Below, piece by piece: positions 1 to 22,777 of a stretch of 32,004 bases of DNA. This stretch comes from a virus: positions 1 through 32,004 of the IMG/VR virus record IMGVR_UViG_3300021519_001029. One strand, given 5' to 3'. Position numbers and translations under genes: made by a program. The notes under the pieces were generated by a model that was given only the letters and a program-made list of their open reading frames with translations, had not been told where the DNA came from and did no database searches. Numbering within the stretch: position 1 is the stretch's first letter; each line of letters begins with the position of its first letter.

Positions 1-314
1 GCCCCCCCCCATGGGCAGGCTGGCAAGTCAGGCTGGCAAGGCTCCCCTTTTAGCAGGGTAAAGCCTGATGCATTGGACGGGTTTCCCTAGGGGTCAGCAG
101 GCAGGCTGGCAGGCTCTCTGGCAGGCTCTGATGGGCTGGCTGTGGGAATGGGCTGGCGGGCTGGCTTGGAGGCTCTGGAAGGCAGGCTAGGGCTCTCCGA
201 ATCTGGCAGGCCAGCAGGCTGGCTGGCAGGGGGTGGGGAGGGGGTAGGCTGGCAAGATATCGCCTAGGGATTCAGGCAGGCTCTGGCAGGCTGGCAGGCT
301 AGGCAAACAGGCAC
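1..314. repeat. GC-rich gene-free region with GGCAGGCT short repeats
   Basis: No credible reading frame is present. The stretch is visibly richer in G and C than the rest of the window and is packed with variants of CAGGCTGGCA. The exact octamer GGCAGGCT occurs eight times, starting at 14, 100, 108, 120, 181, 275, 285 and 293, always in the same orientation. Spacing is irregular, so this is a cluster of dispersed short repeats and not a clean tandem array. Related CAGGCTG words also occur in the leaders of the cassettes at 1528 and 2221. It could be a packaging or terminal region, a recombination substrate, or slippage-derived sequence; the window does not decide. Confidence 0.7.
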
Positions 315-340
315 AAAAAAGGGGAGCCTTTCGGCTCCCC
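315..340 (-). terminator. Rho-independent terminator after the 165-aa cassette gene
   Basis: On the minus strand the stem GGGGAGCC/GGCTCCCC (arms 333-340 and 321-328, GAAA tetraloop) is followed by six U. It sits 14 nt after the stop codon of the gene starting at 851. It is the last member of a family of eight near-identical terminators. Confidence 0.93.
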
Positions 341-353
341 TGATTCAGTCAGG

Positions 354-851
354 CTATCCCCACAGTTTGCCCAGTTGCTTACTCAGGCTCTGGATATGCT
401 TTGGCTGTTTCTTCATCCGCTTGACCTCAGCATTCCATTCCTTCCTCCGTTGCTCCGCTTCCTTCTGGCTGTGGGCTAGTGCATCAGTCTCAGTCAGTCC
501 GACAACCTTTCCATCAGCGATGAATACCAGCGGTGTGCTCTGAAGCATTGCTCTGGCTCCAGCCTTGGCTTGCTCAGCCTTTTCCAGTTTCCACAGTTCC
601 GTTGTGGCTGTGTCCAGCATGCTCTTCAGGTTTCTGCGATAGTCTCGCAGACATTCCCAATGCTTAATCATTCCGTTCCTGATGCTGTCAGGATTCATGT
701 CGGGCATTTTGTTCAGCAGGCACTCTGCGGTGTGCTCTGCCAGCATTGCTTTGTGCCAGTTGATTTCCAGCAGGTTGATGTTTTTCTGCAATTCAGTTGC
801 AGGCTGTGAGAGTGCGTTGCTCTCGGATTCGCTATGGGCGGGTTGCGTCAT
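354..851 (-). CDS. hypothetical cassette protein, helical, 165 aa
   Basis: I do not recognise this protein. It is mostly polar and charged and looks helical: a Ser/Glu-rich N-terminus (about residues 6-17) followed by amphipathic, coiled-coil-like stretches around residues 20-90 and 125-160. No signal peptide, membrane segment or metal-binding motif is visible. The start at 851 is chosen because a TTGCGT-N18-TAGCGT promoter ends 9 nt upstream, giving an almost leaderless mRNA, and because the MTQ N-terminus matches the related cassette gene starting at 2000. It is monocistronic, with a terminator directly behind it and the terminator of the upstream gene directly before its promoter. Probably an early accessory protein; function unknown. 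Confidence 0.75.
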   Translation of the reverse strand: MTQPAHSESESNALSQPATELQKNINLLEINWHKAMLAEHTAECLLNKMPDMNPDSIRNGMIKHWECLRDYRRNLKSMLDTATTELWKLEKAEQAKAGARAMLQSTPLVFIADGKVVGLTETDALAHSQKEAEQRRKEWNAEVKRMKKQPKHIQSLSKQLGKLWG

Positions 852-860
852 GGCACAGCC

Positions 861-890
861 ACGCTAGTGGCTCATGCGATTCAGACGCAA
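861..890 (-). promoter_or_regulatory. promoter, near-leaderless, type A leader
   Basis: Minus strand: TTGCGT (890-885), 18-nt spacer, TAGCGT (866-861), then exactly 9 nt to the ATG at 851. The transcript would begin one to three bases before the start codon. The element is almost identical to that at 2010-2039. Confidence 0.6.
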
Positions 891-893
891 CGC

Positions 894-922
894 AAAAAAA
901 GAGGGAGCCTTACGGCTCCCTC
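894..922 (-). terminator. Rho-independent terminator after the 193-aa cassette gene
   Basis: Minus-strand stem GAGGGAGCC/GGCTCCCTC (arms 914-922 and 901-909, loop GTAA) followed by seven U. It ends four nucleotides before the -35 box of the next cassette, so terminator and promoter are fused back to back. Confidence 0.95.
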
Positions 923-929
923 AGTTTCG

Positions 930-1511
930 CTATTCGTAGTGGGGTGTCCTTAGCGTCTCATGCTCATAAGGGAATCTCTCATGGTAGACTCCAGCATTCA
1001 CTTCAGCCACTACGCTGGACAGGCTCCGCAGTTTCCTTCCGTTGTGATTCATGTCTCCCTCGAATTTCATTCCCCATGTGTCTCGGGCATACATCTTCGC
1101 TGAATCCATATCAGCAAATCTGCTGAAGGGGAATGAAGCCTTAGCCTGATGGCGGTCATAGAAACATCCTCCCTCTGCTGGACTGAATTCCAATCGCTCA
1201 ACCCAGTAGAATGTCCAGAATCCTTCATGGTGTTTTCTGTCCCTCAGTTTCTCAGCCTGCCATTTACAGAGGTTTTCCCATTCAGCCTGTTCCGCTAGGA
1301 ATTCGTTTCGCTTCCATTCCTTTAGGGCGGATTCATTCTGGAACCATTTGGAAACCATTTCTGCGATACCCTCAGGGGTCATGGTTGCGTTTCGAGCCTT
1401 CATGAATTCAGCAAACATGTTTGCTCGTTCAGTTTCGGATTTATGCTGTGCCTCAGCATGAGGGAGGAATGGTGTTAGTTCCTCGGATTCACCTTGAGCG
1501 TTGTGCGTCAT
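930..1511 (-). CDS. hypothetical cassette protein, 193 aa
   Basis: Not recognised. It is charged and aromatic, with a Trp-rich centre (roughly residues 59-103: KWFQNE, KEWKR, FWTFYW). Residues around 44-50 read MTPEGIA; the same motif, with 17 identical DNA bases, occurs in the unrelated 101-aa protein starting at 5432. A C-terminal AGVY segment (near residue 172) is encoded by 16 bases identical to bases in the neighbouring 134-aa gene. No membrane segment or signal peptide is visible. The start at 1511 sits 9 nt behind a TTGCAG-N18-TAGACT promoter, and a terminator follows the stop, so it is its own transcription unit. The shared fragments suggest assembly by duplication or shuffling. Confidence 0.75.
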   Translation of the reverse strand: MTHNAQGESEELTPFLPHAEAQHKSETERANMFAEFMKARNATMTPEGIAEMVSKWFQNESALKEWKRNEFLAEQAEWENLCKWQAEKLRDRKHHEGFWTFYWVERLEFSPAEGGCFYDRHQAKASFPFSRFADMDSAKMYARDTWGMKFEGDMNHNGRKLRSLSSVVAEVNAGVYHERFPYEHETLRTPHYE

Positions 1512-1520
1512 GGCAACGCC

Positions 1521-1550
1521 AGTCTAAAGGACAGGCTGAAAATCCTGCAA
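1521..1550 (-). promoter_or_regulatory. promoter, near-leaderless, type B leader
   Basis: Minus strand: TTGCAG (1550-1545), 18-nt spacer, TAGACT (1526-1521), 9 nt, ATG at 1511. The spacer resembles that of the element at 2215-2244 and differs from type A. Confidence 0.6.
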
Positions 1551-1553
1551 CGC

Positions 1554-1580
1554 AAAAAGAGGGAGCCTTTCGGCTCCCTC
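1554..1580 (-). terminator. Rho-independent terminator after the 134-aa cassette gene
   Basis: Minus-strand stem GAGGGAGCC/GGCTCCCTC with a GAAA loop (arms 1572-1580 and 1559-1567) and five U, directly followed by the next promoter. Confidence 0.95.
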
Positions 1581-1595
1581 TGGTTTCGCTATTGG

Positions 1596-2000
1596 TTAGC
1601 AGTCATCTTCATCTTCCTCTTCCTCCTCTTCCTTATCTTCCTCTTCCTCTGAGCAGTCAGGACACACATCAGTCAGGACACCTAGCAGGAGATAATAACC
1701 ATCAACCCCTTTGCTGACTTCTTCCTCCATCTTGGCTGTGATTGCTGGCTGGCCTCCCAGCGTTCCAGTCATTGCTAGGCTACTGAGCGTTTGAATCCGC
1801 TGGTAGACTCCAGCATCAACCTTACGCCATGCTCTGCTGGCTGTGGGAATCAGGCTGAAGATGTTTCCATCAACCCTGAGCCATTCAACCTTAGGGAATC
1901 GACTGCGAGAAATCGTGCAGTCACCGATTAGATACTGAGCCAGCATCTGTGAGGCTGAGAGCGTAGACTGGCTCTCATTCAGTTTGTTTGTTTGCGTCAT
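1596..2000 (-). CDS. hypothetical cassette protein with extreme acidic tail, 134 aa
   Basis: Not recognised. The N-terminus (MTQTNKLNESQS) resembles that of the 165-aa protein starting at 851. The middle holds the AGVY segment shared with the 193-aa neighbour. The last about 20 residues are almost only Glu and Asp, framed by cysteines (CPDC before, final C). Such tails occur in proteins that bind basic partners or mimic DNA, but nothing else here supports a specific role. The start at 2000 is fixed by a TTGCGT-N18-TAGCCT promoter ending 9 nt upstream. The gene stands alone between two terminators. Confidence 0.72.
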   Translation of the reverse strand: MTQTNKLNESQSTLSASQMLAQYLIGDCTISRSRFPKVEWLRVDGNIFSLIPTASRAWRKVDAGVYQRIQTLSSLAMTGTLGGQPAITAKMEEEVSKGVDGYYLLLGVLTDVCPDCSEEEEDKEEEEEEDEDDC

Positions 2001-2009
2001 GGCACAGTC

Positions 2010-2039
2010 AGGCTAGTGGCTCATGCGATTCAGACGCAA
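2010..2039 (-). promoter_or_regulatory. promoter, near-leaderless, type A leader
   Basis: Minus strand: TTGCGT (2039-2034), 18-nt spacer identical to that at 867-884, TAGCCT (2015-2010), 9 nt, ATG at 2000. Confidence 0.6.
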
Positions 2040-2042
2040 CGC

Positions 2043-2069
2043 AAAAAGAGGGAGCCTTGCGGCTCCCTC
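2043..2069 (-). terminator. Rho-independent terminator after the 43-aa cassette gene
   Basis: Minus-strand stem GAGGGAGCC/GGCTCCCTC with loop GCAA (arms 2061-2069 and 2048-2056), then five U. Confidence 0.95.
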
Positions 2070-2073
2070 TGGG

Positions 2074-2205
2074 TTATTTGCTTTTAGGCTTAGCGGAACC
2101 GAAAGCACCTAGGGTGTTTCGTTTGCGTTTGGCCTGAGCCTTTTTCTCTGCCTTGGCTTGCTCTGGGGTCAGAGCAACCTCTGCAGGTTTTTCGGATTCA
2201 GTCAT
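2074..2205 (-). CDS. small basic hypothetical protein, 43 aa
   Basis: Reading from the ATG at 2205 gives a 43-residue protein starting MTESEKPAEVALTPEQ, then a Lys/Arg/Ala-rich helix (KAEKKAQAKRKR) and a short tail ending KPKSK. The gene is supported by context more than composition: it has the best -10 box of the array (TAAAAT) placed 9 nt before the ATG, and a family terminator 4 nt after its stop. The basic helix suggests nucleic-acid binding, but that is inference. No known family is recognised. Confidence 0.7.
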   Translation of the reverse strand: MTESEKPAEVALTPEQAKAEKKAQAKRKRNTLGAFGSAKPKSK

Positions 2206-2214
2206 GGCAGATTC

Positions 2215-2244
2215 ATTTTAACAGGCTGGCTGGAAATCCTGCAA
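2215..2244 (-). promoter_or_regulatory. promoter, near-leaderless, strongest -10 of the array
   Basis: Minus strand: TTGCAG (2244-2239), 18-nt spacer, TAAAAT (2220-2215), 9 nt, ATG at 2205. Type B leader, matching the element at 1521-1550. Confidence 0.68.
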
Positions 2245-2247
2245 CGC

Positions 2248-2274
2248 AAAAAGAGGGAGCCTTGCGGCTCCCTC
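2248..2274 (-). terminator. Rho-independent terminator after the 26-aa membrane peptide gene
   Basis: Minus-strand stem GAGGGAGCC/GGCTCCCTC with loop GCAA (arms 2266-2274 and 2253-2261), then five U. It lies 6 nt after the stop at 2281, which supports that small gene being real. Confidence 0.95.
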
Positions 2275-2280
2275 GGATTG

Positions 2281-2361
2281 CTACAGGCAGAGGAACAATA
2301 TGCAACTGAGCCAGAGGATTACAAACCAAACCACACCCCAGAGTAATGCTTCAATCTCCAT
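2281..2361 (-). CDS. 26-aa single-pass membrane peptide
   Basis: A 26-codon frame starts at the ATG at 2361, inside the end of the 149-aa gene (11-nt overlap), and stops just before a terminator. After MEIEALL the rest is almost purely hydrophobic (GVVWFVILWLSCILFLCL), so it should span the membrane once with a very short acidic N-terminus. Overlap suggests translation coupled to the upstream gene. The function cannot be told from sequence. The main doubt is its small size. Confidence 0.55.
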   Translation of the reverse strand: MEIEALLWGVVWFVILWLSCILFLCL

Positions 2362-2800
2362 GGTTATAGGATTCGGTTTCAATCTCTTCCATCCTGTCCC
2401 GATATTCCTGCAGGAATTGCCTAGCATCAAAACTGAAAGGCTCTGCCTGCTGATGGAGTTTGTCGGCCGTTTCACAGATTGAATCCTTTTCAATTTCCGA
2501 GTCTGAGCCTTGCTCGATTACAACCGAATCACCATTAGTGAGCCATCGTCTATCTTCCCATTTGTGGGTATAATTTCCAAAGGCAGGATGATAGAAATCT
2601 TCAGCCTTGTTCACGGCCGTTTTAAAATCCTTCAGAGCCTGACTAGCATCTTCCAGCAGGATTCGAGCGTTTGCCAATTCCTTTGTGAGACGATGGAATT
2701 CTGTATCCATCTTTCCCAGCAGAGTTTCCCTAGTGACGCTAGGTGCGGTGACAGCAGGGGAGATGCTATCGGGATTTTCCCCTTGGATGGTTGGTTCCAT
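2351..2800 (-). CDS. hypothetical coiled-coil cassette protein with duplicated N-terminus, 149 aa
   Basis: Not recognised. The first 18 residues (MEPTIQGENPDSISPAVT) are nearly repeated at the start of the 103-aa protein beginning at 3767, while the remainders differ, so only the 5' end was duplicated. Residues about 28-68 look like a coiled coil (heptad-like Leu/Ala with Lys/Glu); the C-terminal third is acidic. No membrane segment is visible. A family terminator precedes it, but unlike its neighbours no clear -10 box sits 9 nt before the ATG; the AT-rich stretch at 2822-2835 may serve instead. It is followed by an overlapping 26-codon membrane peptide gene. Confidence 0.72.
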   Translation of the reverse strand: MEPTIQGENPDSISPAVTAPSVTRETLLGKMDTEFHRLTKELANARILLEDASQALKDFKTAVNKAEDFYHPAFGNYTHKWEDRRWLTNGDSVVIEQGSDSEIEKDSICETADKLHQQAEPFSFDARQFLQEYRDRMEEIETESYNHGD

Positions 2801-2838
2801 GAATCGGAACCTGACAGGCTGAGGAAATAAAACAACGC

Positions 2839-2867
2839 AAAAAAAGAGGGAGCCTTTCGGCTCCCTC
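2839..2867 (-). terminator. Rho-independent terminator after the 162-aa cassette gene
   Basis: Minus-strand stem GAGGGAGCC/GGCTCCCTC with GAAA loop (arms 2859-2867 and 2846-2854), then seven U. Confidence 0.95.
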
Positions 2868-2875
2868 TGGTTTCG

Positions 2876-3364
2876 TTATCCGAATCGGATTTCTTTCAGG
2901 AAACAATACTGCATGAACGCATCAGAGGAAACAGCATCTTCCTTTGAAGGATTATCCCGAGTGATTAGCATTCCAGCATACATGACTCGCAACCATTCTG
3001 GAGTCTTGGGGTCATTAACAAACTCCACCATTTTACCATGGAGCCAGTAGCATGTGACTGGGGAGTAATCCGTAATCGGTTTACCATCTTCCTCCATCCT
3101 GACATTGATTAATAATTCAGCATACAGAATCCCCGTAGTTGCTCCATGACTATGCTCTCCAGCCTTATTGTAATCCTGCCAGCCTTTTTGCGTTGCGTCG
3201 TGCTGGGCATCAAAACCCCATGAGCCATTTCCGAATCCGCCACACTCTACAGCACCGCTGACGCTATTCCACAGAGCCGTAGCATATTCCTCAGTCATAG
3301 GCTGACCTACGCATGAGAGGTTGAATTTACTGATTTCTTTATCTGTCTTAGTTAGTTTGGGCAT
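2876..3364 (-). CDS. hypothetical cassette protein, 162 aa
   Basis: Not recognised. It is soluble-looking and of mixed composition, with a Gly/Trp-rich stretch around residues 41-65 (GGFGNGSWGFDAQHD) and a His-containing AGEHSHGATTG segment near residue 68. No convincing catalytic pattern can be assigned. The start at 3364 sits 9 nt behind TTGCTC-N16-TAGTTT, again nearly leaderless, and a family terminator follows the stop. It does not share the N-terminal sequence of its neighbours. Confidence 0.75.
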   Translation of the reverse strand: MPKLTKTDKEISKFNLSCVGQPMTEEYATALWNSVSGAVECGGFGNGSWGFDAQHDATQKGWQDYNKAGEHSHGATTGILYAELLINVRMEEDGKPITDYSPVTCYWLHGKMVEFVNDPKTPEWLRVMYAGMLITRDNPSKEDAVSSDAFMQYCFLKEIRFG

Positions 3365-3373
3365 AAGACATTC

Positions 3374-3401
3374 AAACTAGAGCAGAGGGGAATCAGAGCA
3401 A
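3374..3401 (-). promoter_or_regulatory. promoter, near-leaderless
   Basis: Minus strand: TTGCTC (3401-3396), 16-nt spacer, TAGTTT (3379-3374), 9 nt, ATG at 3364. The CTCTGCTCTA run around the -10 box recurs in the next upstream promoter at 3779-3806. Confidence 0.58.
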
Positions 3402-3403
3402 AC

Positions 3404-3432
3404 AAAAAAAGGGGGAGCCTTTTGGCTCCCCC
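3404..3432 (-). terminator. Rho-independent terminator after the 103-aa cassette gene
   Basis: Minus-strand stem GGGGGAGCC/GGCTCCCCC with an AAAA loop (arms 3424-3432 and 3411-3419), then seven U. The arms differ from the family consensus in compensating positions, so the pairing is conserved. Confidence 0.95.
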
Positions 3433-3455
3433 TTATTCCATGACTGGAAGGGTGG

Positions 3456-3767
3456 TTATTTAAGTTGCGTCAGAGCCTGACCCTTAAGGCAGAGCAGAGC
3501 GTTAACCATGTAGACCTCAGCCGTCACATCATTACCCTTGCAGATTTTCTCATGAGCAACCTGAGCAACCTTGTCAGCATCAGCCAGCAATCGGTCGAGC
3601 CGTTCAACATTCCATTGATGTAGGTTTTTCTGTCCCCGCAAACGGCTCCTCTTCAGGTTGAATCGTTTGAGCAGTTTATGATATTTGCCAGTTTCGTTTT
3701 CAGTTTGGTTGTTAGTGACAGCAGGGGAGATGCTGTCTGAGTTTTCCCCGATGGTGGTTGGTTCCAT
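3456..3767 (-). CDS. hypothetical cassette protein sharing the MEPT N-terminus, 103 aa
   Basis: A longer frame is open upstream, but the start at 3767 is chosen because the resulting N-terminus (MEPTTIGENSDSISPAVT) matches that of the 149-aa protein beginning at 2800, with 20 identical DNA bases at 3715-3734 and 2748-2767. The rest is Lys/Arg/Leu-rich, probably helical and basic, and unlike the 149-aa protein. It ends with a helical Leu/Ala-rich stretch (MVNALLCLKGQALTQLK). No known family is recognised. It lies alone between terminators, behind a candidate TTGGTT-N16-TAACTT promoter. Confidence 0.7.
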   Translation of the reverse strand: MEPTTIGENSDSISPAVTNNQTENETGKYHKLLKRFNLKRSRLRGQKNLHQWNVERLDRLLADADKVAQVAHEKICKGNDVTAEVYMVNALLCLKGQALTQLK

Positions 3768-3778
3768 GTATGTGATAC

Positions 3779-3806
3779 AAGTTAGAGCAGAGCCTGATGC
3801 AACCAA
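3779..3806 (-). promoter_or_regulatory. candidate promoter
   Basis: Minus strand: TTGGTT (3806-3801, inside the upstream U-tract), 16-nt spacer, TAACTT (3784-3779), 11 nt, ATG at 3767. Weaker than its neighbours in this array. Confidence 0.4.
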
Positions 3807-3834
3807 AAAGAAGAGGGAGCCTTTCGGCTCCCCC
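3805..3834 (-). terminator. Rho-independent terminator after the 416-aa gene
   Basis: Minus-strand stem built on GGGAGCC/GGCTCCC with GAAA loop (arms 3826-3832 and 3815-3821), then an A-interrupted U-rich tract. First and least regular member of the terminator family. Confidence 0.85.
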
Positions 3835-3842
3835 TGTTTTGA

Positions 3843-6002: not shown

Positions 6003-6209
6003 TTAAAGAATCTCCTTAGTGATGCTGTTAATCATGTTACCATGTTCGTCATACTCCCAATCTGGGCTATCAACATGAGGCTGGTCAGCAGGAGTAATTA
6101 CCCCATCAGAATTAATGATGTATAAACCCTTTTTAAGTAAATCTATGATTTCTTGAGGGAGTGGTTTGAGAGCCTGTTTAATGGGCTTTTGTGTAGGTTG
6201 GTTAGGCAT
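6003..6209 (-). CDS. hypothetical protein, 68 aa
   Basis: Small protein starting MPNQPTQKPIKQALKPLP, then a helix (EIIDLLKKGLYII) and an acidic tail. Not recognised. The start at 6209 lies 10 nt behind a TTGACG-N16-TACAAC promoter and has the NQPT motif seen at other starts in this window. It heads a four-gene operon of 68, 73, 105 and 101 codons. Confidence 0.65.
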   Translation of the reverse strand: MPNQPTQKPIKQALKPLPQEIIDLLKKGLYIINSDGVITPADQPHVDSPDWEYDEHGNMINSITKEIL

Positions 6210-7591: not shown

Positions 7592-8398
7592 ATGCATAAC
7601 GCAACCAATCAGTCTAACCCAGTATCTTTTGCTGGAATGATAGACGCTGACTACCGCCAAGCCAAGGGTCTGAGCAAATCTATGCTCACCCATTTTATGA
7701 AGTCACCTGCTCACTACCAGCAGGCTCTCAAGACTCCCATGGAGCCAACCAAGGCAATGAATTTTGGCGTGGCATTCCACGCTGAGATGCTCATTGATAA
7801 CGCCAGTTCCTTATACGCTGTTCAGCCAGAAGCGGATGGTCGAACCAAAGAGGGTAAGGCTATCAAAGAGAAGTTTGCTTCTGAGAACCAAGGTAAAACT
7901 ATTATCAGCATGGAAGAAGGTGAGATGATTGTTGGCATGCGTGATTCCATCATGGAGCATCCGCTTGCATCTTCTATTATTGAGAATCGTGGTAACTCAG
8001 AGTTCTCTATGTTTGCTACGCTTGAAACCTCAACTCAGCCAATTCTTTTGAAGGGTCGATTTGATGCTTTTGATAAGTCTACTGGCATTCTGATGGATAT
8101 CAAAACCTGTGAAGATGCTTCACCTGATGGATTTAAAAAGGCTATCAGAAATTATGGATATGACATTCAGCAAGTGCATTATTCTTGGCTGGCAAGTCAG
8201 TTGTATACTGTAAATAACTTTTACTTTATCGCTGTTGAAAAAACTCCTCCATATGCTGTTGGCGTTTATGAGATTGGTAATAACATGCTTGAGTTTGCTA
8301 AGAATCGCTGGACTAAGTCTATGGAATCGTTTGCAGTTTGTCAGAGCAAAGATATTTGGCAGGGTTATAGCAACGACAGCGTAATCTTAGACGCATGA
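7592..8398 (+). CDS. RecE/exodeoxyribonuclease VIII-like PD-(D/E)XK exonuclease
   Basis: The 268 residues follow the phage RecE-type exonuclease layout: an N-terminal GLSKSMLTHFMKSPAHY motif (residues 26-42), conserved FGVAFH (58-63), then the PD-(D/E)XK core with GRFDAF (D158), ILMDIKT (D169, K171) and YDIQQVHYSWL (190-200). It should degrade one strand from DNA ends, producing single-stranded DNA for the ERF annealing protein encoded at 10064, a partnership well known from phage recombination systems. The C-terminus has the usual beta-strand-rich closing region. It ends in an ATGA overlap with the replication initiator gene. The start at 7592 sits 9 nt behind a promoter. Confidence 0.9.
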   Translation: MHNATNQSNPVSFAGMIDADYRQAKGLSKSMLTHFMKSPAHYQQALKTPMEPTKAMNFGVAFHAEMLIDNASSLYAVQPEADGRTKEGKAIKEKFASENQGKTIISMEEGEMIVGMRDSIMEHPLASSIIENRGNSEFSMFATLETSTQPILLKGRFDAFDKSTGILMDIKTCEDASPDGFKKAIRNYGYDIQQVHYSWLASQLYTVNNFYFIAVEKTPPYAVGVYEIGNNMLEFAKNRWTKSMESFAVCQSKDIWQGYSNDSVILDA

Positions 8399-10063: not shown

Positions 10064-10834
10064 ATGAACCCAAATCCAACCAATGAAAACAAGGTCGAAC
10101 TCTATGTCGCTCTTGTCAATGCAGTCTCAGAAACCAAGGACATCGTTGCTGATGCAACTAATCCTTTTCACAAAAATAAATACGCTACGCTGTCGGCTCA
10201 CCTGTCGGCTCTCAAGCCCATCTTTGCAAAGCATGGTCTGGCGATTATCCAGTTTCCTATCGGCTCTGCTGAAAGCGTTGGTGTTCGCACCACCATCATC
10301 CACACTAGCGGTCAAAGCCTCTCAGCAGATGCTTTGGTTCCTGCTGAAAAAGGTATGAGTGGACAAAATGCTGGAGCCTTGGTGTCCTACCTGCGTAGGT
10401 ATGCAATCGCTGGTGTCTGTGGAGTCGCTACTGACGATGACGATGCTGAGTCTGACCGAGTAGCCAAGACGCAATACAAGTCGGCTCCTGTAGCCAGCCA
10501 GACGGTTTCTCTTGGAACCACTAAGACCAGCAAGTTCATTCCTAACCCTAATGCTGAACAGGCTGTTCAAAGCAAGGGTTCCTCATCCGCTGTTGCACCA
10601 TTTGGTGATGCAAAAGGACAGCCTTTGTCTGCTTTGCCACGCACCTCTGATGACAGGAGCAAGAAGTGTGCTGACCTGAACTACTGGGCTAATGTCTGGG
10701 AGCCTCGTCCTTTTGGTGACAGCGGTAAAGTTTCTGCCAAGGATTCCGCTACCAAGTCTGAGGCTATTCGCCTATGGAATGAAGCAGAGGCTCCTGCTAG
10801 TTCTGACCCAACCATGGACGATGTTCCTTTCTAA
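10064..10834 (+). CDS. ERF-family single-strand annealing protein with SSB-like C-terminal tip
   Basis: The N-terminal half carries ERF family hallmarks: NPFHKNKYATL (residues 33-43), KHGLAIIQFP (56-65), VRTTIIHTSGQSLS (74-87) and QNAGALVSYLRRYAIAGV (101-118) followed by the acidic ATDDDDAE. ERF proteins (P22 Erf type) coat single strands and anneal them. Here the partner is the RecE-like exonuclease at 7592. Residues 130-230 are a polar linker, and the protein ends TMDDVPF, which closely resembles the acidic tip of bacterial SSB (DDIPF) used to recruit repair proteins. No separate SSB gene is seen in the window. The MNPNPTNEN start carries the AACC-rich start motif found at other genes here. 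Confidence 0.9.
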   Translation: MNPNPTNENKVELYVALVNAVSETKDIVADATNPFHKNKYATLSAHLSALKPIFAKHGLAIIQFPIGSAESVGVRTTIIHTSGQSLSADALVPAEKGMSGQNAGALVSYLRRYAIAGVCGVATDDDDAESDRVAKTQYKSAPVASQTVSLGTTKTSKFIPNPNAEQAVQSKGSSSAVAPFGDAKGQPLSALPRTSDDRSKKCADLNYWANVWEPRPFGDSGKVSAKDSATKSEAIRLWNEAEAPASSDPTMDDVPF

Positions 10835-11642: not shown

Positions 11643-11827
11643 GTAACCGAAAGTCTACTGAAGGATATCTAAAGATTACAGGAGTTAAGTATCCTGTAAA
11701 TGTGTTTAAAGGATGGAGCAGAACCTATTGTAAAAATGTGCAAAAGCAGGCAATGAAACTTGCTGAACATAATGCTAAACGCTGGGCTGAACTTTTTGCA
11801 AAACCTCTTAACAAGTGGACTGCATGA
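11639..11827 (+). CDS. small basic hypothetical protein, 62 aa
   Basis: Not recognised. An N-terminal beta-like part (YLKITGVKYPVNVFKGW, residues 10-26) is followed by a basic amphipathic helix (KNVQKQAMKLAEHNAKRWAE). The net positive charge suggests nucleic-acid contact. Coupled at both ends by ATGA overlaps. Confidence 0.62.
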   Translation: MSNRKSTEGYLKITGVKYPVNVFKGWSRTYCKNVQKQAMKLAEHNAKRWAELFAKPLNKWTA

Positions 11828-12564
11828 GCAAATTAATTAAATTCTGTGCTGTAGGTGATAACCATGGTGACATGATAGACAAAGATGTTGCATCTGAATT
11901 CTATAAGTTTTTAAAAAAGTTCAATCCTGATGAAATAGTTCATCTTGGAGATAACTGGGACTTCCGTTCTATTAGGCGTAATGCTGGTGCAAAAGAAGAA
12001 AACGAATCTCTTGTATCTGATGTCAAGGCTGGCAAAGAATTTATTAGTCGTATAGAACCTACAATTTTTTTAAACGGAAACCATGATGACCGCCTAGACC
12101 AGATTATCAATGGAAGCACAAGCGGAATGATGCAGGACTATTGCATGGATTTAAAACAAGACATTCATAACCATCTTAAGAAACATGGTGCAAAGAAGAT
12201 TTACGATTACCATGCAGAAACAGGAGTTCACCGCATAGGCAAGGTAGCCTTTGTTCATGGATATACATGTGGCATTCGTGCTGTAGAGGAGCATGCAATT
12301 CATTATGCAGAACCTCAAGGTGCAGTCATTATGGGTCATCTTCATAGCATACAGCAAATAAATGCTAGAAGGCATCTAGGAGCCGTTGGATTTTCAGGTG
12401 GATGCCTATGCCAAAAAAAGGCAATGGACTACGCCAAGAACCGCCTAGCCACCTCAAAGTGGGGGTCAGGCTGGACTTATGGGTTTGTTCAAGGGTCAGA
12501 CTGGAAAGTGTGGCAAGCCCATAGGGTAGGAAAAGAATTCATCTATTCTATCAAAGGACTATGA
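11824..12564 (+). CDS. calcineurin-like metallophosphoesterase
   Basis: All metal-binding motifs of the calcineurin-like phosphoesterase superfamily are visible: GDNHGD (residues 11-16), LGDNWD (41-46), GNHDDR (85-90), FVHGYT (143-148, H145) and GHLHS (171-175). A start three codons upstream is open, but 11824 gives an ATGA overlap with the preceding gene and is preferred, for 246 residues. Phage members include the lambda NinI-type protein phosphatase and nucleases/phosphodiesterases of the Mre11 type; the substrate cannot be told here. The C-terminal domain (175-246) is not recognised. Its neighbours are small unknown and DNA-binding proteins, so a DNA or nucleotide substrate is plausible. 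Confidence 0.88.
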   Translation: MSKLIKFCAVGDNHGDMIDKDVASEFYKFLKKFNPDEIVHLGDNWDFRSIRRNAGAKEENESLVSDVKAGKEFISRIEPTIFLNGNHDDRLDQIINGSTSGMMQDYCMDLKQDIHNHLKKHGAKKIYDYHAETGVHRIGKVAFVHGYTCGIRAVEEHAIHYAEPQGAVIMGHLHSIQQINARRHLGAVGFSGGCLCQKKAMDYAKNRLATSKWGSGWTYGFVQGSDWKVWQAHRVGKEFIYSIKGL

Positions 12565-15260: not shown

Positions 15261-15566
15261 TTATTTTGTGGTTCGTTTAAATTTCTTTACAATAGATTCA
15301 AAGATGTCTGGGGCTAAAGCACCAGCAGATGAATAAATAATACCTTTGTATAAAGCATCTATTGTTGAATGGTTAATAGCAAAGTAAACAAGAGTTCCTA
15401 CTATAGCACCAGCAATTCCTTTTCTTACCCATATGATTGCCTGCCATTTTTCATCTGTAATGATAAGCCTAGCAACAGCACCCAAGGCTCCAAGCACAGC
15501 AACTATCCAGCCACCCTTCTTGAAGTCCTCGGCTGTATCTATTAGGCTAGGGTCTACAGGACTCAT
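15261..15566 (-). CDS. putative holin (small multi-pass membrane protein)
   Basis: The 101 residues hold three hydrophobic segments (about 19-36, 50-66 and 72-88) separated by short charged loops, and a basic C-terminus (KKFKRTTK). The pattern (GGWIVAVLGALGAVARLI, then GIAGAIVGTLVYFAI, then GIIYSSAGALAPDIF) is that of class I-type phage holins such as the LydA/holin-3 groups, which make membrane holes at the time of lysis. It sits between the giant internal virion protein gene (ATGA overlap) and the 533-aa gene, in the late operon, as expected for lysis genes. No endolysin gene is recognised in the window. Confidence 0.75.
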   Translation of the reverse strand: MSPVDPSLIDTAEDFKKGGWIVAVLGALGAVARLIITDEKWQAIIWVRKGIAGAIVGTLVYFAINHSTIDALYKGIIYSSAGALAPDIFESIVKKFKRTTK

Positions 15567-18500
15567 CGTTGTTTAGGCTCCTCTTTAATAACTCTTCTTT
15601 TAGCCTCATCCTCAGTTTTATATACACCTATCACAGCCTTATAAGGATTATAAACCCTGAAAGTATTCTGCATGTTGATGATTGTATACCCCATGGCATT
15701 AGTAAATGACCTACCCTTTCCATATACTTCTGTAGTCCAAGACCTCCATATGCTTATATCTGCCTTAGTGAAATCACGCTTAGGCATAGGTGCAGGAGCA
15801 GGAGGAACTACTGGTGGAACTACATTAGGAGGAACTTTAGGAACAACCTTAGGAGGAACTACAGGAGGAACTACAGGAGGAACTACAGGAGGAATAACTA
15901 CAGGCTCTTTAGTTTCTGTATCAATAATTGGCTGTTTAGTTTCTGGGTCTATTTCTATCTTATTTCCATCTTCATCTATTATGTAAAGTTTCTTATCTTC
16001 TGTTTCAAAAATAGGTTTCTTATCCTCAGTTACTTCAGGAAGATTTGTTTCAGTATCAATAACAGGAACATGTGTTTCAGTAACAGGAACTTTGCTTGGG
16101 TCATTCTCATCAGTAATCTTTACATATTTTTGTAAATCTTCGTTCCACATTCCAACCCCAACATTTTTACTTTCATCAAATGGCTTTCTTATAATTCCTT
16201 CAAATCCTCCATAGCCTTGGACTGTTGATGTTTGCCAGTCTTTAGCATTAACCTTCCAAACAGCAGGTTCACGCATAGCCTCATCATGACCTAAGAATGG
16301 TTTTCCAGTTTTAGTTTTTTCCCAAATTTGCCAATCACTTAAACCATTAAGAGCATTAGGTTTTTTATTAGCCTTAGACCATGCTTCCATGTTGTTTCTC
16401 CAAGCATCAACATATTTCTTTTCACCTTCAGTAAGAAATCCTTCTGGTCTTGTTTGAAGATTATTTTGTTTAGTTCTTCCTCTTTCATTCATTAAATCAG
16501 TAACAGGTATATCCTTGTCATTGTTTCTTCTTCCCATATCTAGACCTCTTACCATTTCATGAACTATTTGATTCAATATACTTGTTTGAGGAACTCCTTG
16601 AATTTCAGTAAATTGAGAAATAGCCTCAGATGCTTGATAAGCCAAATCATCAACATTAGGTTTAAACCCAACTTCTACTTGAGGAGCATTTAGTCCTGCA
16701 AATATATCTTTTTGCATTGGCATCTTAGCCCATTGACCAATTAATTGAGGGTCATTAAATAAAGCAATTTGAAACTCTGGAGTGCTTATTAATCTATATA
16801 CACTTCTAGATTTTAATTCAGGAGATTGAAGATAATAACCACTTGGGTCTTTTTCTACATTATATCCTTTTTGCTCCCATGGAGAAACTAACACATATCC
16901 TTTTTCAAGTTGTCCTCTATTGCTAGCAGGCTTTCCTTTATCAGTATGTGTAGGCTTATTTAAAATTACTCCTTTTGAAGTCCATGCAGATTCTATTACT
17001 CCAGTTTTTTCATTAAGAACCCAAGTGTTTTTTAACAGATGTCTTTGAAGTGAAAGAATTCTTGCAAAATATATTTCACCATCAGGAAGAACTATTCCAT
17101 CGGCAATTCTTTTCTTTGTGTTTTCAATAAATTTATCAACTCCATCAGCCCAATGCTTTCCCATAAATCCAGACTTATCAGCAGGAGATGGTTCAATAAT
17201 CTTAGAAAGCAAAGGATTTGCATCTATTGCATCTCTTTCTATTTTAGAAAACAAAGTATGTCCAAGTTCTTCAAGTGCTGTTCCTTCAAAAGAATGACCA
17301 GTTAATGCTCTTACTCTTCTTGTATAAGGACTTCCAGAATAGTTTCCTGAATTGAATTGCCGTCTTGTTGCACTATATGCTTTGTCTACTAATTGCTCAA
17401 GGTTTAAATGAAGTTCAGAATGACTCTTTCCTTCAAAAACAACAATTATAGGATGTCTAAATTTTGCATCCTTTTTTTGTCCTGTTTCTTTTTCTTCATC
17501 TATATCTATTTCATCAGAACGATTTTTAAGGCGTTTTGATTCAGCATCTATATACTCTTTAAGTTTTTTTGCTTCTGCTTTTTCAACTGGGTCAACTGAT
17601 TTAGAAATAATAGCATATCTTTCTTTAGCCGTAGCCTCTCTTGTAATTCTTGATTCAAATCCACTTCCAACATTTGCACCTGTTACTCCTCCATTCCAAG
17701 TCTTTCCAGAATTTACATGAACAGGAAGGTCAAGTTGTGTAGGGTCTGCAAGAGCAAGCATCATCTTTGCCATCTTTGAATGATAGTCGTTTGCTACATT
17801 TGGATGAATGGAATCACCTGATTTAAGTATAAAATTAAGAGTATCTCTTACTGTTATTGCTATTTTCTTTTTATGATAATAATCAAAGAATTGCCAAAGA
17901 TTATGAAAGCCAGCAATAGGAAAAGCATCTGATGCTGATTTTCCTTCTTTACCATCTTCTCCTGCCATTTTTCTTCCAACTATTGATTCAAAATATGTTG
18001 GGTCAAAAACAGTTGAATGTCCTAATTCGGAAACTTCATATGGCTCCCATCTTTTAATTGAGTCTTTATATATTGCTGGCTCTTTTGGAAGTTCCCATTC
18101 TTTCCATCCTTCACCAACACCTTCATGTGGAGAAAGGTTAACAGTTCTGTTTGTGCGACCTTCACCACGGGGTAGAGGCTCATATGCCGCACCAGCCTGA
18201 GCCTTTTCACGGGTGCTACCAATCATACGCTGATGCTGATTAGCCTTGTTTGCAGGAACTATAAAAGTTACATCAAGATTACCGCCGTCTGATTGATTAA
18301 TATAAATGACACCATCGTGTCCTTGTTCAATTGCTTCACCAAGAATCTTCTCGGTGCGTTTCATCATATCTGTAAACTGTCCGTCTACAACAAGCGGATT
18401 GTCAAACCTTATTGCAGATTTAGCAATGTTAGGAGAATTGTCACCCCTATCATAACCTTGATACTCTGCACTAAGTGTTGTGTCATCTGAAGCGGAAAAG

Positions 18501-21500
18501 TACGCACCATCAATTTCTCCAGCCTCAAGTGTTTTGTTTCTGGAAGAATATTTTTTAGTCTTAAGAAATCCTTCAGATGTTCTTGTTCCGTGTACGCCTA
18601 CTGCAACAACAGGCTCTCCTGTCCTAAATTGCTTGGAGAAAACTGCGTGTTGATAATACTCACGCATAGGAACATTCTCGGCTAAGTATCCAGCAAAGTC
18701 ATTGTATGTAGAAGCCGCATTGTTTACCCATTTCTTTGCATCTTTTATTTTCTTTGCAAAGTCTCTAGCGTTTTCATTTGTAAAATAACTATGGCGTTGT
18801 TTTTCTAATGCTGGCTTGGCTAAATCTTTTTCAAGTTGTTTTACCTCTGCATAATCTCCTATTGTAAGGCTATGCTCAATTCTATAATCATTTATTTTTA
18901 TAGTGCCTTTAAGCATTGGGCGTTCTTTTTCTAAATTAGCCACCCCTTTTTCTTTTAACTCTTGAAGTCTAATTCTTTTAGTCTGTCTATCAAGTCCACC
19001 AAACATATCCTTAGACATTTCGTCAAGCATCATTAAGGCTGTTTCTTGGTTTATGTTTACTTCTTTAAAGTTTTTAATAAAGTCCGTGAATCCTTCATCG
19101 GCAGTCTGAGGTACAAGTTTTCTGTCTCCAACAAACTCCTTCATTTCACGGGTGTTAAATAGGTTTCCAATGCGTCTTGCTTCAGAATATTCATTACTTC
19201 CCATAATAGAAGCCTCTCCAATTCCTTCATGTGGAGAAAACGATGCTACTTCTCCGTTGTCTCTCATCAATGGAGTATTGAGAACTTCTGGAGGATTCTT
19301 TACTGCATACTTTCTTCCAGCCTCTGTTGCTTCTGCTGGAGTTGCATAAGACCCAATTCTCTTTCCTTGGTCATCATAAGCATCAGTAGCATGCTTAGTC
19401 TGAATGAACTTGAATCCAGATGGATGAGAAAATGTTCTACCATTAGGAGTTTCCTCACTATACATTTCAGATGGACTCCAGTTACGAACCAAGTCTCTAT
19501 AGGCATTTGCATGCTTATATGGAACGCTTTGATTGCGTAGTCTTAAGTTAGTCATTCTGTTCACATGGAATGAAAATACAGAACTAAGAGTATTCCGATT
19601 GATTTCACCAGACGGAGTATTTATAAATGTATCAGCCTCACCCTTAGCAAGCCCAAGAACTTGGTGCATTGCATTTCTTCTTTCATTGCCAAGTCCGTCT
19701 GTCCAAAGTTGTGCAGAAGGAACTCTATCAGGGTTAGGTGTTCCATCAGGTAGCAAAGCATCTTTAGATGCATTTTCAAGATACCTATAAAAATCCGTCA
19801 TGAACTCAGCATGATTACCACTCCAAAGTTTTTTAACAGATGGGTCAGACCAAGTGTTATTAGCACGAATTTCAATAACTTTATAATCAAGCATGTTAGC
19901 CTTAAACTCAAATGCACCATTCTTATCTATTCTAACATCAAGACCAAAAGGAATAACAGTTCTAGATTTAAACGGAACAGCACCACCACGAACTCTTGAA
20001 GGAGCATTTACATCTCCAGCCCTTTCAGCAGTTTTTCCAATTCCTCCAAAATCAACAACATTTCCTTTAAGTTCTCCAGAAATAACACGCTGGAACATTT
20101 GCATCTTGTTAGCAAATTCTCTAGTAATATGTCCTGTGTTTATAAGATTTTCCCAGATTGCTGGACTAAACTCACCTCTAATGCTTCCTTCAGCATCTAT
20201 TGTAAATGTCCTTTGAGACTCAGGAATAGCCATCAATGCTTTATATACAGCCTTACCTTTAACTCTATTTTCTCTAGCAATCTGTTCGTTAGTATTGTGT
20301 CTATAAGTTCCATCTATCTGTTTAGTAAACACGCCATCAAGACCATTTCCTTCAATAAATCTTTTACGGCTTGATGCAGAAAGTTTATTGATATCAAACT
20401 CTCCAGTTTCATTTACATTCTTTTCAATTCTAAGCATGTCTTTAAAGAACATGTCCATTGCTGGATTAAGAACTCTATTTCCTTTAAATGGCTTAAACAC
20501 TTCATCAATAGGAACAAGCCTGCTTGTCCCATTAGAATCTGTAAATGTTCTATTAAAATTAAACTCAGGATGACTTAGATTCATTCTGCTTCTCCAGTAA
20601 TTTCTCCATGACAAACCTGCATCTTCAATTACTCCACGAATTCCTGGCAAATCACCACCATGATATAGCCAATCAACTGGCTTATCCATAAGCATGTGAG
20701 AGAAATAATAAGCACCAAACTCTTCACTAAGATGTTCAAGAAGCGGTCTACCACCAAGAGTAGGGTCTGAAATAAGTTGTCCGTTTTCTTCAAAGTTTCT
20801 GGTAGCCATTTCAAGACGCTTAATTGCATCAGCATGAGCATTTTTATCTTTGCTAAATTCTGCATCAATATATCTCTTAAACATCTGCTTTACTTCAGCA
20901 GGCTCAACAACAGAATTATGAGTAAGGTCACCTTCATTGCTTCTTTCACCAATAACTCTAGAACGAAGTTCTTGAATATAGTAATCTTTCATTACACTTG
21001 TTCTCATAACAGAGTGCAAGATTTCATGTGGCAAAGTAGGTCTAGATGCATTGTCTGCATTTATAATTATCTTAACCATTCCGTTGGCTGTGTTCTCAAC
21101 TACATAACCATTGTTATGCTGAAACTGAGCCATACTGAGAGGCATATCACCATCAGGAAGAATGGTAGTCCCATCATGTTTAAGAGGGTCTAATCCTTTA
21201 TCTGTAAGGTATTCACCATATCCTTTGTTGCCATATAATTCAATGTGAGTTCTTGGATGAACTATGTCTTTAGCCGCAATTATTGAATCAAAAGAAAACC
21301 CTTTTTGGTTAGCCCAAATTTCTGCATTATGCCATTGTTCTGCTTGTTCTGGATGTGTTGCCTTAAGTCCATCAATAACCATTTTTGCTTCAATGTTAGT
21401 TCTCATTGCTCTGGTTGCACCAAATGCATCTGCAAGGACTCTACCACTTCCAGCACCTATAGAACCTAAAGCAATACCAGCACCTATGCCATGTCCTAGC

Positions 21501-22777
21501 CCTTCTTCTCCATCTGACCAAGCACCAAGAGCACCACCAATCATAGCACCATGGGTGCTACCTTTGATAATTTCAGCACCATAACTAAATAGAGGGTCAG
21601 CCGCATCAATAATCTTTAGCAAACTTTTTGCATGACCACTAAACTTAATGCCTTCTTTATTGGCATCAATCATAGCCTGTCTTGCATATGAGGCTAGACC
21701 TCTTTGACCATATGACATTTGTTCACCTATAATGCCTATGGCTTCACCAACACCAGCCATAGCCCTTCCAGCCGTCATTCCAGCCGTAAGGTATCCAGTT
21801 GCCTCAAGAGGGTTAACTACGCCTGCTACGCCAGCCCCAATGCTTCCAATGCCAGTCATTTTAAGGGTGTCCCTAAATTCATTTCTAGAAACTCCAGCAA
21901 GGCTTTCAAACCCAGCCCCAGCCTTTTCTACACCATAATCTATAGTTCCTCTAACAGCCTTACCCATGAACTCAATAGGCATGCCAACACCCCATCTAAT
22001 AGCATTGCCAAGAACTAAATTATTAAGATGAGAAACCCTAGCAGAAGCCATAGCAATCTTTTCTCCCATGCCCATAGCAAGACCAGCACCACTAAAAACT
22101 TTACCAAAAGGCACAAACCACATGGGGTCTGCAACATATGAAGCCGCCTGAACAACATCATTATTAAGATGGTCTGGGTCAATTATCATAGTCTTGCTAC
22201 CATCAGCAAAAGCATCGCTATCTCTTTTAAAGTTTCTAGCCTGAAGAAATTCACGATAAGCAGCATCTGAGTTTTCTTTATAGCCATGAATAGCATTAAA
22301 AAATCTAGCCTGAGGTGATGCAGAGTTTTCAGATTGAGCAAGCATGCCATACATGTTTCTTGTTCCCTGTGCAAATGCTTCTGCAACGCTTGGAACAAGA
22401 GTCTGCATTCCTTTTTCTTTATCATCTAAAATAGAGTTACCAGCCTTGATAAACTGGTCATAAATGCCACCAGCCGCAGTTGATAGATTTTCAAATAAAT
22501 CACTTTCACGATGTCTATAAAAATCATTTAACTTCATCCAGTCCTCTTTTGTTGGGTCATAGATACGCTTTTCTTTGTCAGCCTGTATCATGTCCGCATG
22601 AATTTCCTCACCATTCTTAGGTGCAGTTATTTTCTTAAATGCATCGTCACGCTCTTCAGCAGGTAAAGAATTAATATACTTATCAACCTCTTGATTTCCA
22701 GTATAGGTTTTTCCTCCAGCATTAGCATTCAAGGCAGGCATCGTAATGCCTTCCTGTGATTCATATAAATCAGCCAT
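15563..22777 (-). CDS. giant polyvalent internal virion protein (gp16-position) with zincin and ADP-ribosyltransferase-like domains
   Basis: A 2404-residue protein in the position of T7 gp16. Gly/Ala-rich hydrophobic stretches (about 307-350 and 409-455) could insert into membrane during DNA ejection. A zinc metallopeptidase signature LPHEILHSV follows (H584, E585, H588) with a candidate third ligand at EEFGAYY (E685/E686). An ADP-ribosyltransferase-like domain spans about 1390-1510: GVHGTR (1394-1399), GAYFSAS (1424-1430) and HDGVIY (1487-1492), the pattern of ART domains in phage 'polyvalent' proteins. Two SPHEGxGE motifs (1181 and 1549) flank it. The C-terminus has an acidic Thr/Glu region, a Pro-Val tract (about 2292-2326) and a 70-residue end domain. 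I saw no lytic transglycosylase motif. Probably injected with the DNA to act on host targets. Confidence 0.82.
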   Translation of the reverse strand: MADLYESQEGITMPALNANAGGKTYTGNQEVDKYINSLPAEERDDAFKKITAPKNGEEIHADMIQADKEKRIYDPTKEDWMKLNDFYRHRESDLFENLSTAAGGIYDQFIKAGNSILDDKEKGMQTLVPSVAEAFAQGTRNMYGMLAQSENSASPQARFFNAIHGYKENSDAAYREFLQARNFKRDSDAFADGSKTMIIDPDHLNNDVVQAASYVADPMWFVPFGKVFSGAGLAMGMGEKIAMASARVSHLNNLVLGNAIRWGVGMPIEFMGKAVRGTIDYGVEKAGAGFESLAGVSRNEFRDTLKMTGIGSIGAGVAGVVNPLEATGYLTAGMTAGRAMAGVGEAIGIIGEQMSYGQRGLASYARQAMIDANKEGIKFSGHAKSLLKIIDAADPLFSYGAEIIKGSTHGAMIGGALGAWSDGEEGLGHGIGAGIALGSIGAGSGRVLADAFGATRAMRTNIEAKMVIDGLKATHPEQAEQWHNAEIWANQKGFSFDSIIAAKDIVHPRTHIELYGNKGYGEYLTDKGLDPLKHDGTTILPDGDMPLSMAQFQHNNGYVVENTANGMVKIIINADNASRPTLPHEILHSVMRTSVMKDYYIQELRSRVIGERSNEGDLTHNSVVEPAEVKQMFKRYIDAEFSKDKNAHADAIKRLEMATRNFEENGQLISDPTLGGRPLLEHLSEEFGAYYFSHMLMDKPVDWLYHGGDLPGIRGVIEDAGLSWRNYWRSRMNLSHPEFNFNRTFTDSNGTSRLVPIDEVFKPFKGNRVLNPAMDMFFKDMLRIEKNVNETGEFDINKLSASSRKRFIEGNGLDGVFTKQIDGTYRHNTNEQIARENRVKGKAVYKALMAIPESQRTFTIDAEGSIRGEFSPAIWENLINTGHITREFANKMQMFQRVISGELKGNVVDFGGIGKTAERAGDVNAPSRVRGGAVPFKSRTVIPFGLDVRIDKNGAFEFKANMLDYKVIEIRANNTWSDPSVKKLWSGNHAEFMTDFYRYLENASKDALLPDGTPNPDRVPSAQLWTDGLGNERRNAMHQVLGLAKGEADTFINTPSGEINRNTLSSVFSFHVNRMTNLRLRNQSVPYKHANAYRDLVRNWSPSEMYSEETPNGRTFSHPSGFKFIQTKHATDAYDDQGKRIGSYATPAEATEAGRKYAVKNPPEVLNTPLMRDNGEVASFSPHEGIGEASIMGSNEYSEARRIGNLFNTREMKEFVGDRKLVPQTADEGFTDFIKNFKEVNINQETALMMLDEMSKDMFGGLDRQTKRIRLQELKEKGVANLEKERPMLKGTIKINDYRIEHSLTIGDYAEVKQLEKDLAKPALEKQRHSYFTNENARDFAKKIKDAKKWVNNAASTYNDFAGYLAENVPMREYYQHAVFSKQFRTGEPVVAVGVHGTRTSEGFLKTKKYSSRNKTLEAGEIDGAYFSASDDTTLSAEYQGYDRGDNSPNIAKSAIRFDNPLVVDGQFTDMMKRTEKILGEAIEQGHDGVIYINQSDGGNLDVTFIVPANKANQHQRMIGSTREKAQAGAAYEPLPRGEGRTNRTVNLSPHEGVGEGWKEWELPKEPAIYKDSIKRWEPYEVSELGHSTVFDPTYFESIVGRKMAGEDGKEGKSASDAFPIAGFHNLWQFFDYYHKKKIAITVRDTLNFILKSGDSIHPNVANDYHSKMAKMMLALADPTQLDLPVHVNSGKTWNGGVTGANVGSGFESRITREATAKERYAIISKSVDPVEKAEAKKLKEYIDAESKRLKNRSDEIDIDEEKETGQKKDAKFRHPIIVVFEGKSHSELHLNLEQLVDKAYSATRRQFNSGNYSGSPYTRRVRALTGHSFEGTALEELGHTLFSKIERDAIDANPLLSKIIEPSPADKSGFMGKHWADGVDKFIENTKKRIADGIVLPDGEIYFARILSLQRHLLKNTWVLNEKTGVIESAWTSKGVILNKPTHTDKGKPASNRGQLEKGYVLVSPWEQKGYNVEKDPSGYYLQSPELKSRSVYRLISTPEFQIALFNDPQLIGQWAKMPMQKDIFAGLNAPQVEVGFKPNVDDLAYQASEAISQFTEIQGVPQTSILNQIVHEMVRGLDMGRRNNDKDIPVTDLMNERGRTKQNNLQTRPEGFLTEGEKKYVDAWRNNMEAWSKANKKPNALNGLSDWQIWEKTKTGKPFLGHDEAMREPAVWKVNAKDWQTSTVQGYGGFEGIIRKPFDESKNVGVGMWNEDLQKYVKITDENDPSKVPVTETHVPVIDTETNLPEVTEDKKPIFETEDKKLYIIDEDGNKIEIDPETKQPIIDTETKEPVVIPPVVPPVVPPVVPPKVVPKVPPNVVPPVVPPAPAPMPKRDFTKADISIWRSWTTEVYGKGRSFTNAMGYTIINMQNTFRVYNPYKAVIGVYKTEDEAKRRVIKEEPKQR
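15801..15902. repeat. 12-bp tandem repeats encoding a Pro-Val tract
   Basis: Units of GGAGGAACTACA (plus-strand view) repeat perfectly at 15852, 15864 and 15876, with degenerate copies on both sides. They encode PVVP repeats that link the acidic region to the C-terminal domain of the 2404-aa protein. The unit is a multiple of three, so copy number can change without frameshift. Confidence 0.85.

Follow-up and report, generated by a model that had tools for sequence, protein, structure and literature searches.

How can a phage exchange its short early genes and still keep each newcomer under its own control? The question is raised by a row of minus-strand genes in an uncultured tailed phage, IMG/VR record IMGVR_UViG_3300021519_001029 (a virus record classed as linear), of which we analysed the whole 32,004 bases, referred to here as the window. 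The genes, or cassettes, lettered A to H in order of transcription, are separated by repeated joints, each of which would consist of the intrinsic terminator of the gene behind and, entered directly by its U-tract, the −35 box of the next gene's promoter. We consider it probable that this hypervariable early region is a row of single-gene transcription units with recombining joints, and that these joints include an RNA pseudoknot at the start of the gene. Since the cassettes resemble one another in terminator, promoter, start and pseudoknot, recombination between joints would remove, add or move whole genes with the phage's control kept.

The sequence-only reading of this locus had claimed eight hairpins built on GGAGCC/GGCTCC between successive minus-strand genes, and at least five joints in which the U-tract leads to a TTGCNN box, a TANNNT box and an ATG 9 nt on. 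All eight hairpins were found (GGGAGCC-NNNN-GGCTCCC around the GGAGCC/GGCTCC core, followed by U-tracts); they separate seven single-gene units, and none of the shuffled sequences reached the stability of their folds (−20 to −24 kcal/mol, z −3.9 to −5.9). The promoter arrangement likewise held, in five of the seven window joints (C, E, F, G and H: U-tract, then TTGC(N2)-16/18-TANNNT-9-ATG); joints B and D have no clear TANNNT box. The joint module spans about 75 bp; the repeat does not stop at the start codon but extends for about 50 nt within the coding region. Concerted evolution of the terminators is not claimed: identity within genomes (0.74–0.79) is only slightly higher than that between distant genomes (0.67–0.73).

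Relatives were sought through the phosphoesterase gene at 11815-12564, which gave 80 loci in IMG/VR. The full array is present in three of them, G006 (IMGVR_UViG_3300010158_000006), G007 (3300009158_002133) and G022 (3300027649_000291), and a related array in two more contigs, G037 and G038. Protein comparison of the segments between hairpins gave the cassette order A-B-C-D-E-F-G-H for both the window and G007, A-X-B-C-E-F-G-H for G022 and A-B-C-D-G-F-H for G006; the equivalence of E in the window (43 aa) and in G007 (85–87 aa) is one of position and a short common motif, with no significant match. The proposal of constant joints and variable genes, and of gain, loss or reordering at the joints as its check in related contigs, was thus borne out: the same array recurs with its gene content changed at the joints, D being lost and X gained in G022 and the order changed in G006.

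As G007 and G022 are 84% identical in nucleotide sequence over 28 kb, the events that part them can be read base by base. D is lost in G022, and E there stands behind a joint that matches the G007 D joint (score 85) rather than the G007 E joint (43.5), with a switch point, GTGGAACC, common to the D and E starts; D's promoter appears to have been handed to the next gene, E. Cassette X, seen only in G022, has a duplicate of the B joint in front of it. In G006, E's position is taken by G, whose joint is nearer to the window's E joint (56.5) than to the window's G joint (46.5), a modest difference. As far as sequence comparison goes, the relatives show loss, gain and reordering of cassettes at the joints. 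The phage also encodes its own annealase, as had been noted, in the form of an ERF-type protein; since this and an exonuclease are encoded in the genome, and Rad52-like phage recombinases are reported to act in relaxed homologous recombination (PMC3945230), the two would be plausible agents of joint exchange.

The part of the repeat that enters the gene has a structure of its own. When the opening 66 nt of the cassettes were folded, a hairpin whose loop in many copies is UCUCCCC came out at about +31 to +51, and with it a pseudoknot layout in which 4–5 nt at about +18 pair with the loop of this 5–8 bp hairpin, inside the genes of most cassettes. Across 17 copies the stem was 92.4% paired, against 60.5% in shuffled sequences, and its covariation score was 0.829 against 0.261 ± 0.039 (reached in 0 of 500 shuffles; slid-register controls gave at most 0.13); with both helices covariation was 0.517 against 0.167. 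Pairing of at least 4 bp between loop and upstream segment was found in 19 of 22 non-redundant hairpin-bearing starts (3.2 expected; 0 of 2000 shuffles) and, with the GGGG:CCCC class left out, in 5 of 8 (1.0 expected, P 0.0005; swapped controls, 4%). The loop pairing is GGGGA:UCCCC in most copies; the E cassettes of G007 and G022 have GCAGA:UCUGC. Fifteen copies served to build a covariance model, which, run against 774 kb of the phage group, detected array gene starts only, besides one weak match (E-value 0.33); there was no match in 23 further contigs. Rfam gave no gathering-level match in the window, and between 300 and 5200 only an insignificant one (E-value 0.83). This covarying start-proximal pseudoknot is previously undescribed, and no precedent was found for this part of the joint.

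Could the start-proximal similarity instead be simply the end of the recombination homology, in cassettes otherwise like the promoter early stem-loops (PeSLs) of T4-like phages, encoding the shared N-terminus MEPxxxGExxDSxSPA? Joints are indeed duplicated, and N-termini shared. However, the stems differ in sequence and stay paired through changes on both sides, and the loop pairing compensates between orthologues: F has ACUG:CAGU in the window and ACAG:CUGU in G006, and G has GGUG:CACC and GGGC:GCCC, with both sides changed at the same positions in each case. In two G037 copies, moreover, one extra linker nucleotide shifts the hairpin's frame; the peptide reads ERLPRS instead of SPA and the RNA structure is kept. 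Constraint on the RNA is therefore the best explanation of the common peptide, which would be its side effect, and we regard the purely PeSL-like explanation as unlikely.

Under the preferred account of pseudoknot-bearing joints, the element, about 18 nt past the start, would lie just ahead of a ribosome sitting on the start codon. It may control translation initiation, setting its level or timing, perhaps via a bound phage or host factor; helping initiation, limiting it or binding a regulator are the candidate roles. We see roughly an even chance that this is a new class of start-proximal pseudoknot in leaderless-mRNA coding sequence that rides the recombining joint, through which an entering gene would gain full transcription, termination and translation control.

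An ordinary early operon, read as a whole from upstream of A through hairpins that leak or are overcome by an antiterminator, would suit the frequency of antitermination in phages and the two window joints without a clear promoter box, but sits poorly with the promoter-like boxes found at fixed spacing. The pattern TTG-N3-16..19-TANNNT-5..10-start, tested against 2,000 shuffles of the joints, occurred in 5 of the 7 window joints against 0.09 expected (0 of 2000 shuffles as high), and in 11 of 23 non-redundant joints in the four genomes against 0.55 expected (shuffle maximum 4 in 2000). A distant relative, G001, also has single-gene promoters in its syntenic region (TTGACA-17-GATACT), without hairpins. 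We give the operon explanation little credence.

The spacing of the boxes in the joints further suggests where the mRNAs begin: with the −10 box 6–9 nt before the start codon, the mRNA 5′ end would fall at or within about 3 nt of that codon. At the GTG-start joints classed as tag-bearing, the GTG is 6 nt away from the end of a preceding hexamer with A2 and T6 (NANNNT, −10-like; read by eye), such as TACACT, TACATT, CACATT or TAGTGT, H of G007 and G022 being the exception. From this spacing of 6 and the usual sigma-70 spacing, the first transcribed base would be at the GTG start codon, and the spacing of 9 at the window's ATG joints would give a leader of about 3 nt. Leaderless translation of the array mRNAs is thus predicted. 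No Shine-Dalgarno sequence was seen in 30 array starts; by a lenient test, 29 of 98 other genes of the array phages have one.

That the hairpins act as DNA, as sites of a phage recombinase or as folded single-stranded DNA in exchange, like integron attC, is very improbable: structure kept while sequence is free and turnover adjoining the hairpins would fit, but integron cassettes carry a tyrosine recombinase and six contigs of the phage group (possibly incomplete) gave no PF00589 match, the loss of D maps to start-codon homology and not to a hairpin, the spacing between element and start codon is constant, and it takes the sense-RNA reading for one pair to be G-U.

Several points weigh against a row of single-gene units with recombining, pseudoknot-bearing joints. 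Termination, promoter use and 5′ ends are predictions, and joints B and D, as said, are without a clear −10 box. Cassettes C and X have no pseudoknot; it is weak in window E and H and in F of G007 and G022, and the pseudoknot counts are not independent because many copies are paralogous. Full arrays are known from no more than four contigs, and the turnover events depend on metagenome assemblies; larger insertions and deletions between G007 and G022 also lie outside the array. The absence of Shine-Dalgarno sequences was rejected as a special mark of the array, as most other genes are without one too.

Shuffling through repeated joints is not in itself novel. The sequence-only reading could name no phage system of this form, but PeSLs, composite promoter-terminator motifs mediating modular shuffling (Arbiol 2010; Comeau 2014, cited in PMC4503421), are one as described there, and form a close precedent, the nearest in kind and proposed role. 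On that description, both systems have a variable region in which small genes without known function are separated by a repeated promoter and terminator stem-loop (PMC4503421). Both have a compact repeated unit, in the array with 8 terminators and with promoter boxes at 5 of 7 window joints, and both shuffle between close relatives, in the array by the G007/G022 and window/G006 comparisons. With PeSLs, exchange between units excises small circles. PeSL carriers are T4-type myoviruses, whereas the array phages are an unrelated group of about 40–45 kb, in the window with ERF, O-like, DnaC-like and endonuclease VII genes. Compared by description only, the array differs further: its promoter comes after the terminator, whose U-tract leads straight to the −35 box, its starts are predicted to be leaderless, and the joint extends past the start codon to include a covarying pseudoknot.

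In cluster K mycobacteriophages, start-associated sequences (SAS/ESAS) likewise recur as a constant element where many small genes, belonging to different families, begin; the SAS, GGGATAGGAGCCC, lies just upstream of start codons, and the inverted-repeat consensus varies by subcluster, as the array joints vary by genome (PMC3203893). In the SAS description given there, the module is without a terminator, and no covarying coding-region pseudoknot is described (PMC3203893). The GGGATAGGAGCCC motif had no match here with up to 2 mismatches allowed. Phage morons, too, are genes with their own promoter and terminator among other phage genes; the array is a whole row with mutually homologous joints. 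The SPO1 host-takeover module, in which small early genes are clustered and strong promoters and terminators are numerous, is similar in these respects and not homologous; we know of no near-identical recombination sites at its joints. In the T4 gene 32 mRNA and in ribosomal-protein operators, a pseudoknot close to a start controls translation, as part of the leader or operator of one gene, whereas the array pseudoknot is found within the coding sequences themselves, in most of the successive cassettes.

Features of the array, in order of transcription, and putative recombination genes in the window
Feature	Position	Strand	Remarks
Gene A, 416 aa	3843..5093	−	Eighth cassette, 5′ of the first hairpin; AGGAGG (Shine-Dalgarno-like) upstream
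Predicted terminator of A, joint A/B	3812..3835	−	Hairpin and fold
Cassette B, 103 aa	3456..3767	−	Orthologues in G006, G007 and G022
Pseudoknot of B	3717..3749	−	7-bp hairpin 3717-3737, its loop UCUCCCC paired with GGGGA (3745-3749)
Predicted terminator of B	3409..3434	−	Hairpin and fold
Predicted promoter of C	3374..3401	−	TTGCTC-16-TAGTTT, ATG 9 nt on
Cassette C, 162 aa	2876..3364	−	Without start-proximal pseudoknot
Predicted terminator of C	2845..2868	−	Hairpin and fold
Cassette D, 149 aa	2351..2800	−	Missing from relative G022
Pseudoknot of D	2750..2782	−	GGGGA with loop UCUCCCC
26-aa hydrophobic membrane-peptide open reading frame	2281..2361	−	Out of frame with D, whose end it overlaps
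Predicted terminator of D unit	2253..2274	−	Hairpin and fold
Predicted promoter of E	2215..2244	−	TTGCAG-18-TAAAAT
Cassette E, 43 aa	2074..2205	−	Not in G006
Start-proximal 8-bp hairpin of E	2158-2177	−	No clear loop pairing
Predicted terminator of E	2047..2070	−	Hairpin and fold
Predicted promoter of F	2010..2039	−	TTGCGT-18-TAGCCT
Cassette F, 134 aa	1596..2000	−	Protein comparison
Pseudoknot of F	1956..1983	−	ACUG with loop CAGU
Predicted terminator of F	1558..1581	−	Hairpin and fold
Predicted promoter of G	1521..1550	−	TTGCAG-18-TAGACT
Cassette G, 193 aa	930..1511	−	In G006 takes the position of the window's E
Pseudoknot of G	1464..1493	−	GGUG with loop CACC
Predicted terminator of G	901..922	−	Hairpin and fold
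Predicted promoter of H	861..890	−	TTGCGT-18-TAGCGT
Cassette H, 165 aa	354..851	−	Protein comparison
Start-proximal hairpin of H	808..831	−	Weak 3 bp loop pairing; G006 and G007 orthologues GGGG:CCCC
Predicted terminator of H, last joint	320..341	−	C-rich repetitive stretch beyond
Exonuclease	7592..8398	+	Exonuclease VIII PHROG; DUF3799 in Pfam
ERF-type single-strand annealing protein	10064..10834	+	Candidate agent of joint recombination

Among the joints, those of F and H (1992-2050 and 843-901) are 95% identical across 59 nt, and GCGTTGCGTC recurs inverted around the start codon. Related upstream sequences (TTGACN..TTGTAATAC) precede gene A (5131-5095) and the gene at 6003-6209 (6245-6215), with similar ones before A in G006 and G007. 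Pfam, PHROGs and PADLOC assigned no function to the cassettes. Gene A matches phrog_7247 (E-value 1e-17) and has orthologues 34–37% identical in G006, G007 and G022; AlphaFold models of A and G were of low confidence (predicted local distance difference test scores of 60 and 66). The 26-aa open reading frame at the end of D encodes MEIEALLWGVVWFVILWLSCILFLCL, and a similar short hydrophobic peptide follows D in G006.

Beyond the last terminator, on its 3′ side, lies a repetitive, C-rich stretch with poly-C runs (window 1-315), which on the minus strand resembles GCCTGCCAGCC. The same type of stretch is found in G006 (L094) at about 15,380-15,737, where tRNA-Arg and tRNA-Met genes come after it, and at the starts of G007 and G022; as three of the four array contigs end inside it, it probably breaks assembly. 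Elsewhere in the window, 15563-22777 encodes a 2,404-aa protein (its counterpart in G001 has 3,691 aa), unusually long for a phage of this size.

In other members of the group (L011, L041, G003, G012, G014, G016, G029, G001 and G024), small early genes come with other constant leaders at their starts or with other repeated joints. In G001 the constant start module is the promoter given above with a CACCCAC leader, and the repeat of G024 is similar; the modules are CACCACGCATATG in G003 and G012, AAATCCTAACTACAAAAATCCTATG in G014 and G016, and TATAATTCTATAATAAAATG in G029. These start modules differ, and a genome-specific constant start with variable genes therefore recurs in the group, the window's version being the most elaborate among the members seen.

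Nucleotide and protein searches of cultured phages found no relative of those array genes tested, and none of a window structural protein; TerL of G001 had one distant full-length match, in phage C75C1 (31%). An exact search with the window terminator matched no other viral contig. The sole lead to a host, and a weak one, is a short Verrucomicrobiota-binned contig, L174 (JAURFH010000162.1), with syntenic replication-gene homologues (dnaC-like, 47% identical), which makes Verrucomicrobiota a possible host.

Short uncharacterised genes abound in the early regions of phages, where they are gained and lost, and in these four genomes the joints, the events and their breakpoints can all be read. The group offers a clean test of module-boundary homology as a driver of phage mosaicism, and the pseudoknot is a candidate for a new form of control over translation from starts with no leader or almost none.

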